64,000 nt of DNA from Limnovirga soli. Its GTDB lineage: Bacteria; Bacteroidota; Bacteroidia; Chitinophagales; Chitinophagaceae. The translations under genes and the position numbers were made by a program. This document shows, one piece after another, positions 59,269-61,196 of this stretch (the first letter of the stretch is position 1; each line of letters begins with the position of its first letter). The notes beneath the pieces were generated by a model, which ran no database searches, was not told where the DNA came from, and saw nothing but the letters and a program-made list of their open reading frames with translations. Location of the stretch: contig NZ_WHPF01000008.1 in assembly GCF_013106755.1 (NCBI RefSeq), forward strand, positions 186,001 through 250,000, given 5' to 3'.

Positions 59269-59568
59269 CTAGGCGGTTAATTTTTCTTTTTTTCTTTTGA
59301 TTTGATTTATGATGGAATCAAGGGAGTGATCAAAAGATTCTTCAAAGGATTTTGTAGAGGTTTTTACAAAGAAATTATGGTGGGGTACCTGCACCCTGAT
59401 TTCCGTTATTTTGTCTTTAATGTTGTGAACCACATTATCCAACTTCAAAAACACGTCAACTTTAATAATGCCATCGTGAAAAGTATTTAATTTTTCCAGT
59501 TTCCTCTTAACATAATCAATCAGGGTTACATCGGCATCAAAGTGCACAGTCTGGATGTTAACATTCAT
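59269..59568 (-). CDS. hpf: Ribosome hibernation-promoting factor (short form)
   Basis: A 99-residue cytoplasmic protein of the HPF/YfiA family that binds the 30S decoding site to store ribosomes. I chose the ATG at 59568 (MNVNIQTVHFDADVTLIDYV), which gives the family's normal start; an upstream ATG at 59682 would add 38 non-homologous residues. The conserved HFDADVTLIDYVKRKLEKL and VDVFLKLD segments are present. The C-terminal dimerisation domain of long HPF is absent. It lies downstream of xerC on the same strand, probably co-transcribed. Confidence 0.9.
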   Translation of the reverse strand: MNVNIQTVHFDADVTLIDYVKRKLEKLNTFHDGIIKVDVFLKLDNVVHNIKDKITEIRVQVPHHNFFVKTSTKSFEESFDHSLDSIINQIKRKKEKLTA

Positions 59569-59745
59569 AGCAAATTGCTTTTTGGGTGAACAATAAAAAT
59601 TATTAAAAATATGGCGTAAATAAACCTTGTTTGGGCTTGGATTTACAATATGTAATTTACTGCAATAAATACATAAAATCAAATATTAAGTAGCATAGTT
59701 TTGTAAAGCTTTATCATAAAATTTTGTAGAATAAACAGCTGTGTA

Positions 59746-60642
59746 CTAAGCTTTTGGGTGCGCTTTTTTATAAACGTCTTTTAGTTTTTCTATGGTATTG
59801 TGGGTGTAAACCTGTGTAGCGGCAAGGCTGGCATGGCCCAGTAGTTCTTTAACAGCATTAATGTCGGCGCCATGGTTCATTAAATGGGTGGCAAATGTGT
59901 GCCTTAACACGTGTGGGCTTTTCTTATCAATAGTAGTTACTGCGCCCAGGTAATGCTTTACGGTGGTATATACATATTTAGGGTAAAGGGGTTTTCCTTT
60001 AGCATTTACCAGTAGCACGGTTACCTGCGGCAGGCGTACTGGTTTTTCTGCCATATAGTGCCTTATATTGGTTAATAATTCCTGGCTTACGGGAATTATT
60101 CTTTCTTTATTGCCTTTACCCAACACTTTTACCTGTTTGTAGTCAAAATCTATATGTTGTTCTTTCAGGCCTATAAGTTCGCTAAGCCGCATGCCGGTAT
60201 GGTATAACAGTTGTAATATTAGTTTATCAGTTTTTCCTTTCCAGTCGTTCCCAAATTCAACATAACTAAACAGGGTATCCATATTTTTTTCTTCCACAAA
60301 GGCAGGCAAACGCTTGCTCGTTTTAGGGGATACAATGGTAGTTAAGGGCGATTGTATGATGGTGCCTTGTTTTATCTGGTATTTAAAAAAAGACTTTAAG
60401 GAGGATAATTTTCTGTTTATACTTCGGGATTGCAGGGTATCATTTTTTAATTCGGCCATCCAGGTACGGATGATACTGCTGGAGATTTTAGGCAGGTCTA
60501 TTTCTCCATACTGGCTTTGAACAAATGTAAAAAACTGTTCCAGATCGAGTGTGTATGAGGTAATGGTATGCCTGGAATACCTTTTTTCAAAAGTAAGGTA
60601 GTTAATAAACTCTTTTATAGCGGTATGCTGGGGTATATGCAT
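59746..60642 (-). CDS. xerC: Tyrosine recombinase XerC/XerD
   Basis: A 298-residue site-specific recombinase that resolves chromosome dimers at dif. The SAM-like N-domain starts at TAIKEFINYLTFEKRYS. The catalytic set is visible: Arg in TGMRLSELIGL, Lys in VKVLGKGNKERIIPV, HVLRHTFATHL, then HASLAATQVYTH with the nucleophile Tyr. I chose the ATG at 60642 because in-frame ATGs at 60654 and 60666 lie inside the rpsU terminator hairpin. Gene order rpsU-xerC-hpf is common in Bacteroidota. The pair could equally be named xerD; the orthology is not settled by eye. Confidence 0.9.
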   Translation of the reverse strand: MHIPQHTAIKEFINYLTFEKRYSRHTITSYTLDLEQFFTFVQSQYGEIDLPKISSSIIRTWMAELKNDTLQSRSINRKLSSLKSFFKYQIKQGTIIQSPLTTIVSPKTSKRLPAFVEEKNMDTLFSYVEFGNDWKGKTDKLILQLLYHTGMRLSELIGLKEQHIDFDYKQVKVLGKGNKERIIPVSQELLTNIRHYMAEKPVRLPQVTVLLVNAKGKPLYPKYVYTTVKHYLGAVTTIDKKSPHVLRHTFATHLMNHGADINAVKELLGHASLAATQVYTHNTIEKLKDVYKKAHPKA

Positions 60643-60646
60643 AAAA

Positions 60647-60677
60647 ACAGCCATAAAGTTATACACCTTATGGCTGT
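60647..60677 (-). terminator. rpsU terminator/attenuator abutting the xerC start
   Basis: ACAGCCATAA (60647-60656) pairs with TTATGGCTGT (60668-60677). On the minus strand TTTTT follows and runs directly into the xerC ATG at 60642. It can terminate rpsU transcripts or attenuate xerC. Confidence 0.75.
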
Positions 60678-60702
60678 AAATTATGTATTGATAAAAATTA
60701 TC

Positions 60703-60900
60703 TTATTTTTCTATCTTACCGCTGGCTATCTGCTGTTTGTAAGCAGCTTTTAACACTTCCTGACGACGTTTAATAGAAGGCTTGGTAAAGCTTTGACGCT
60801 CTCTCAGCTGCAACAGTACTTTACTTTTTTCAAACTTCTTCTTGTACTTTTTCAGCGCCTTGTCAATGTTTTCGCAATCTTTTGAATCGATGATAAGCAT
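60703..60900 (-). CDS. rpsU: 30S ribosomal protein bS21
   Basis: A 65-residue basic protein of the small ribosomal subunit. It has the characteristic MLIIDSKDCENIDKALKKYK opening, RERQSFTKPSIKRRQE and a lysine-rich end. In Bacteroidota bS21 is part of the pocket that hides the anti-Shine-Dalgarno end of 16S rRNA. Its gene here has a strong AAGGAGGT site (60910-60917), unlike most genes in the window, which fits autogenous control. A promoter with both -33 and -7 boxes lies just upstream. Confidence 0.96.
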   Translation of the reverse strand: MLIIDSKDCENIDKALKKYKKKFEKSKVLLQLRERQSFTKPSIKRRQEVLKAAYKQQIASGKIEK

Positions 60901-60909
60901 ATATTTTAT

Positions 60910-60917
60910 ACCTCCTT
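60910..60917 (-). promoter_or_regulatory. Strong Shine-Dalgarno of rpsU
   Basis: Minus-strand AAGGAGGT, nine bases before the rpsU ATG. Most other genes here have none. It would be readable by ribosomes lacking bS21, whose anti-SD is free (inference from published Bacteroidota ribosome work). Confidence 0.85.
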
Positions 60918-60935
60918 ACGGGATTTTTTGGATTG

Positions 60936-60965
60936 CAAAGATATAAATTCAAATTTTATTACCAA
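60936..60965 (-). promoter_or_regulatory. rpsU promoter
   Basis: Minus strand: TTG at 60963-60965, 19-bp spacer, TATCTTTG at 60936-60943. It fits the Bacteroidota consensus well. Upstream, 60966-61196 contains no gene I accept (see rejected ORF). Confidence 0.75.
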
Positions 60966-61196
60966 ATTGATTTTAAAAAACTTTTTTATGGCTGATTATC
61001 AGGTACTTAATATGTATTACGCCTCGTTTTCGTTTGTTTTGCAGCAATTTAACGCCGGTAAAGAAAAGCTCAAATCGTTACTGACAGTGTATTAGCTCAA
61101 AAAATCATTTGGTTAAAATAGCACATACTATTAACTTCGCACCTCAAATTTTTTAATAGTACGGCAAAATCCGTGCTGCCTAAAATCATAAATAAT

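Follow-up and report, generated by a model that had tools for sequence, protein, structure and literature searches.

The window studied here, a stretch of 64,000 nucleotides from Limnovirga soli, carries a gene for ribosomal protein bS21 (rpsU) with a strong Shine-Dalgarno (SD) site, raising the question of whether its translation responds to the state of the 30S subunit. In Flavobacterium johnsoniae, bS21, bS18 and bS6 are reported to form a pocket that holds the 3' tail of 16S rRNA (PMC9976891). Loss of bS21 or its Y54A substitution raises translation of rpsU and of strong-SD reporters there, and the SD-less reporters tested were not raised by either change (PMC9976891). The same report takes an rpsU SD below -13 kcal/mol as the signature of autoregulation and states that about half of Chitinophagales carry it, with the loop predicted for them (McNutt 2023, PMC9976891). 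The mechanism itself is already known, and L. soli falls in the predicted group. We infer that the host family is Chitinophagaceae, in the order Chitinophagales.

The rpsU leader and its match to the 16S tail

The 65-aa reading frame at 60703-60900 (minus strand) matches Ribosomal_S21 (PF01165) with an E value of 8.5e-15. Its best PDB match is 7jil_z, aligned over residues 1-58, with Tyr54 aligned with a tyrosine; we take 7jil to be the F. johnsoniae structure. For the bS18 and bS6 of L. soli, the best PDB matches are 9i5v, presumably also of Bacteroidota origin, and then 7jil. The plus strand reads ACCTCCTT at 60910-60917 and CAT at 60898-60900, and therefore rpsU lies on the minus strand, where exactly nine bases separate AAGGAGGT from the ATG. 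This confirms the strong SD claimed in the initial annotation. The range given there was right, but the strand was left unstated and the complementarity is two bases longer, extending over AAGGAGGTAT at 60908-60917 (minus strand), a perfect 10-bp complement of AUACCUCCUU in the organism's own 16S tail. A local hairpin of the SD with the start region is possible and weak (-5.3 kcal/mol).

The initial annotation also called for a look at the 16S 3' end, where a mutated anti-SD would speak against its reading. The tail of L. soli is GGAAUACCUCCUUUUUAGAG and the locus ends in GGCTGGAATACCTCCTTTTTAGAG, in the only 16S locus of an assembly in which further copies may be collapsed. The CCUCC core of the anti-SD is intact, so that this objection falls away, while the flank is altered (GGAAUACCUCCUUUUU) and reads AAUACC. 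At the equivalent flank, the E. coli tail reads AUCACC. A usable anti-SD, as bS21 autoregulation requires, is kept at this one locus. The rpsU leader follows the altered flank, with AAGGAGGUAU and AUACCUCCUU forming a perfect 10-bp helix of -18.9 kcal/mol. This value is stronger than the threshold of -13 kcal/mol set for nucleotides 1532-1544, although it was obtained with Vienna duplexfold minus 4.1 for initiation and the published one with free_scan (PMC9976891), so that the energy scales may differ. Against two reference tails with C at 1533, the same leader reaches -16.6, and against the best other tail type among relatives -19.1, compared with -18.9 for its own.

The gene is preceded by a promoter-like sequence of the Bacteroidota type; the initial annotation had called the promoter canonical. 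The consensus of such promoters is TTTG / TAnnTTTG, and here a -33 element TTTG (60963-60966, minus strand) lies 19 nt from the -7 box TATCTTTG (60936-60943, minus strand), which ends 35 nt before the ATG. The window holds seven pairs of the form TTTG-N18..21-TAnnTTTG, whereas 30 mononucleotide shuffles of it average 1.5. From the position of the -7 box, the leader would be about 27-31 nt long. On the 3' side of rpsU, the region 60640-60690 folds at -21.7 kcal/mol (z -6.8) and contains an intrinsic terminator with a 13-bp stem and a T run (60647-60677, minus strand). This terminator-like hairpin makes it probable that rpsU is transcribed alone, as is stated for the F. johnsoniae gene (PMC9976891). 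The divergent neighbor on the other strand is rpmE. Downstream of rpsU, at 59269-60666 (minus strand), lie a gene of the phage-integrase/tyrosine-recombinase family and an S30AE (ribosome hibernation-type) gene, with the terminator-like hairpin between rpsU and these two.

By analogy with F. johnsoniae, we consider it very probable that translation of rpsU is governed by a feedback that responds to the state of the 30S subunit. In a ribosome with its full protein set, the 16S 3' tail would be held by bS21, bS18 and bS6, which would keep the anti-SD unavailable, and most mRNAs would be translated without an SD. On 30S subunits without bS21, the tail would be exposed and could form a 10-bp helix (AUACCUCCUU with AAGGAGGUAU) on the short leader of rpsU, driving bS21 synthesis until bS21 is restored. 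Both the occlusion and the preferential translation by bS21-free ribosomes are thereby presumed to hold in L. soli.

Strong Shine-Dalgarno sites across the genome

The pattern AAGGAGG-N4-12-ATG occurs at 43 places genome-wide (47 hits less four repeats), compared with 57 for the reversed pattern. All 43 places were inspected. At 36 of them the ATG opens a frame under 60 aa, and five were rejected as gene starts and judged internal, solely because the frame is open 47-369 codons further upstream. We judge that only rpsU and one other place are gene starts. Pairing stronger than that of rpsU is found at four of the rejected places (L002, L009 and one each in L007 and L008), and at a fifth, L022, the energy equals that of rpsU; the frames at these five are 1-23 aa long or lie inside a longer frame. 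Since rejected places match or exceed rpsU, the rare thing is such pairing at a real gene start.

Pairing energies with the own tail were surveyed in 864 kb of the 5.48 Mb genome (the window and 40 other stretches), covering 630 genes taken as ORFs of 100 aa or more from their first ATG. Energies of -7 or below are reached in 108 SD windows versus 180 mock windows. Not one of the 630 sampled genes lies at or below -16 kcal/mol, the best being -15.6 against -18.9 for rpsU. With the best in-frame ATG chosen for each gene, a single gene reaches -16 or below (-16.1) and none reaches rpsU. Strong SDs are thus no commoner than chance genome-wide, and in the sample mock sites outnumber them. The claimed contrast of rpsU with most genes holds, and the proposed survey of SD strength places rpsU above every sampled gene, with one gene outside the sample still stronger. 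Equally strong SDs on most genes, which the initial annotation had named as damaging to its reading, are not what the 43 places and the 57 of the reversed pattern display. Among four named ribosomal protein genes compared, the energies are -18.9 for rpsU, -13.4 for rpsR, -8.1 for rpsF and -3.0 for rpmE.

These numbers bear on the possibility that the leader contains an ordinary strong ribosome-binding site, used constitutively by all ribosomes to make much bS21 without any feedback. The rpsU site does have the form of a textbook SD, with a GGAGG-to-ATG distance of 10 nt that is common in relatives (22 of 65 measured). However, the lack of enrichment of strong SDs genome-wide, and their deficit relative to mock sites in the sample, are expected if normal ribosomes cannot use SDs, and the neighboring ribosomal gene rpmE has no strong SD. 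Moreover, the output of strong-SD reporters in F. johnsoniae went up when bS21 was lost or mutated (PMC9976891). Constitutive use therefore appears unlikely, and we retain feedback through the 30S subunit as the preferred reading.

Covariation and conservation of the rpsU site

Covariation of the SD with the tail was followed in 111 genomes across the class for which both tail and leader were available (71 at first), 50 of them with strong pairing. The table omits genomes whose leader was not among the matches listed or was not found, as well as G007, and its counts represent related genomes rather than independent events. Within the 50 strong-SD genomes, U1533 lies opposite A in 34/34 and C1533 opposite G in 13/16, for which Fisher's test gives 7e-12, though the genomes are related. 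Counted by family, there are five cases of U-A versus four of C-G, the exceptions being f37, a family with C-A, and two genomes of f50 with C-T. At position 1543, C lies opposite G in 15/17 genomes, and U opposite A in 10/33 and opposite G in 2/33. Position 1532 is paired in 37/50 and position 1531 in 5/50, which marks the helix end. In one family (f3), the 16S tail UUACC is accompanied by GGUAA in rpsU.

Changes of the core are followed too. The core UCUCA (two genomes, f21) is matched by UGAGAUGU in rpsU, and the core CCUCU (the two Membranihabitans genomes, G399 and G546) by AAAGAGGUA. The latter match is the weaker evidence, because G opposite U1539 would pair too. NCBI assigns Membranihabitans to Saprospiraceae, a family that GTDB places in Chitinophagales. 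All four strong-SD genomes with a changed core are thus matched by rpsU, and a core position is unpaired in one genome each of f37 and f67. Altogether, the SD covaries with the tail at positions 1533, 1535, 1539 and 1543 in the 50 strong-SD genomes. When each leader was also scored against the tail types of other genomes, its own tail came out best or tied in 39/50, with many ties, and another tail did slightly better in 11/50, the L. soli genome among them; the position-by-position table supersedes this swap test.

A prediction was set in advance, namely that genomes with a CCUCU core should carry AAAGAGGTGT or AAAGAGGTAT before rpsU. The already-seen Membranihabitans genomes fit it within AAAGAGGTA (2/2), and three new genomes (G552, G553 and G554) gave no support. 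In G552 (Flavobacteriales, CCUCU core), the 25 nt of sequence available before rpsU contain no SD, and in G553 (CCUCU core) rpsU was not found. G554 was rejected as a fair test, its bS21 being unlike that of Bacteroidota and its 16S about 80% identical to that of L. soli. A wide contig scan for 16S tails returned mostly noise, with 5 of 118 among the matches listed being 16S tails.

The position-by-position table also speaks to whether the rpsU sequence might be conserved as an operator or as the target of an RNA-binding protein or another factor, with the 16S match incidental. The site does lie at a suitable place for an operator, ~20 nt on the downstream side of the -7 box, but across families it covaries with the 16S tail at four positions, for which 16S pairing is the simple explanation. 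We regard conservation for another factor as very unlikely. The rpsU site tracks lineage changes of the tail outside the CCUCC core, and this tracking of the flank is evidence that selection acts on pairing rather than on particular letters. Changed anti-SD cores are found in 11 of the 61 genomes without a strong rpsU SD versus 4 of the 50 with one, the 11 comprising UCUCC in eight (five from one genus), UCUCU in two and CCUCU in one. Their higher frequency where the strong SD is missing hints that rpsU may be one of the chief causes for the retention of an anti-SD in many Bacteroidota.

Several lineages display patterns of their own. In f26 (G364, G379, G327) and f50 (G283), a genome with a C1533U tail is also without an rpsU SD, as if SD loss had freed the tail to change; G327 of f26, which has no SD yet an unchanged tail, is a counter-case. 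In f9/g112, the core is UCUCC in 8/8 genomes with a tail, and the five leaders compared are without a strong rpsU SD, holding AAAAGGA-like stretches at most (-6.2 to -11.5). In f84/g273, the leaders read AAAAGAGGTAT in five of six genomes (G448, G483, G489, G500 and G505) and AAAAGAGCTAT in G495. Leaders with AAAAGAGGTAT would fit a 16S tail AUACCUCUUUU; the tail was looked for in the f84/g273 genomes and not found. The same leader AAAAGAGGTAT is carried by G025, which belongs to the family of L. soli.

Within this family, rpsU leaders were read in 74 genomes, L. soli included, with energies calculated against the family's tail. Pairing of -13 or below is present in 67/74, the exceptions being G007 (-12.0), G065, G045, G088, G005, G082 and G075. 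In 71/74, a -7 motif TAnnTT[T/C]G is found no more than about 50-60 nt from the start, and across the 65 measurable leaders the SD core and the ATG are 6-11 nt apart. Tyr54 of bS21, which in the F. johnsoniae model contacts the tail, is present in L. soli and kept in all 50 same-family proteins checked. Pairing of -13 or below is missing from seven of the 74 family genomes, and a strong rpsU SD from 61 of the 111 in the class-wide comparison, so that the putative feedback loop is dispensable over evolution. A chance match of leader and tail has a negligible probability: although there are 13 GGAGG-containing 10-nt complements per 864 kb (both strands), so that by our estimate ~0.3 would precede some gene start genome-wide, rpsU was the gene predicted beforehand, an energy as strong as its own came up in 8 of 20000 Markov-generated leaders, and the conservation in 67 of 74 family genomes already refutes chance.

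Relation to known systems and a second gene

The statement that the sequence fits the published bS21 model appears sound, given that the anti-SD core is intact, strong SDs are scarce and rpsU follows the flank. L. soli and F. johnsoniae share an extended rpsU SD matched to the own 16S 3' tail, an SD-scarce genome, Tyr54 of bS21, and a short-leader rpsU that appears to be transcribed on its own. In contrast, L. soli would belong to another order (Chitinophagales), its loop is proposed from sequence alone, and it differs in its flank AUACC, its 10-bp helix and its leader of about 27-31 nt (25 in F. johnsoniae). The specialized-ribosome loop of F. johnsoniae would thereby extend to one more organism of the predicted group.

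The Chryseobacterium-type anti-SD UCUCA with its matched rpsU is likewise described as an SD that covaries naturally with the 16S tail (Jha et al. 2021, quoted in PMC9976891). There the core is altered; in L. soli it is canonical, with the covariation at flank positions 1532 and 1533, and Membranihabitans with its CCUCU core is a case apart from the Chryseobacterium type. The prfB frameshift motif of F. johnsoniae, which is reported to work at low efficiency, is another event that normally depends on SD-anti-SD pairing and is kept in a bacterium rarely using SDs (PMC12421855); it acts in elongation, however, and the rpsU site in initiation.

New here are the flank covariation, the CCUCU core with a matched rpsU in Membranihabitans, and the second gene with a 13-nt SD. 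The text of PMC9976891 drawn on here mentions covariation for the UCUCA core only, and neither flank covariation nor the CCUCU case was found in the literature searched, which comprised titles and the starts of abstracts. The data on flank covariation may be implicit in the 2023 survey, because that survey used each organism's own tail.

The strongest complement before a likely gene start is not that of rpsU. It is AAAAAGGAGGTAT, a perfect 13-nt match of -21.3 at G000:C1:364347-364359 (= L005:1498-1510, L289:8347-8359), with GGAGG 6 nt before the ATG (364363) of a 145-aa gene. This gene has no Pfam match, and no relatives of it were found in viral contigs. It is paralogous to the N-terminal part of a downstream AAA+ ATPase, which supports the start at 364363, though an earlier ATG lies 66 codons upstream in the same open frame. 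From the four 12-nt complements of the tail in 864 kb, we estimate that chance alone would place ~0.1 such sites before gene starts in the whole genome, so this one may still be fortuitous. At a distance of 3.5-6 kb are genes for RtcB and two RlaP proteins. We see only a slim chance that bS21-free ribosomes with an exposed or damaged tail would switch on bS21 together with this protein, which might then be linked to RNA repair. An AAGGAGG at L289:14297 was rejected as the SD of rtcB, because the frame behind it, about 190 nt ahead of that gene, is just 9 aa long.

A further site precedes rpsR (L066:1741-1760, G000:C2), the gene for bS18, another of the pocket proteins. Its GGAGG, 8 nt before the ATG (-13.4 kcal/mol), sits inside the last codons of rpsF.
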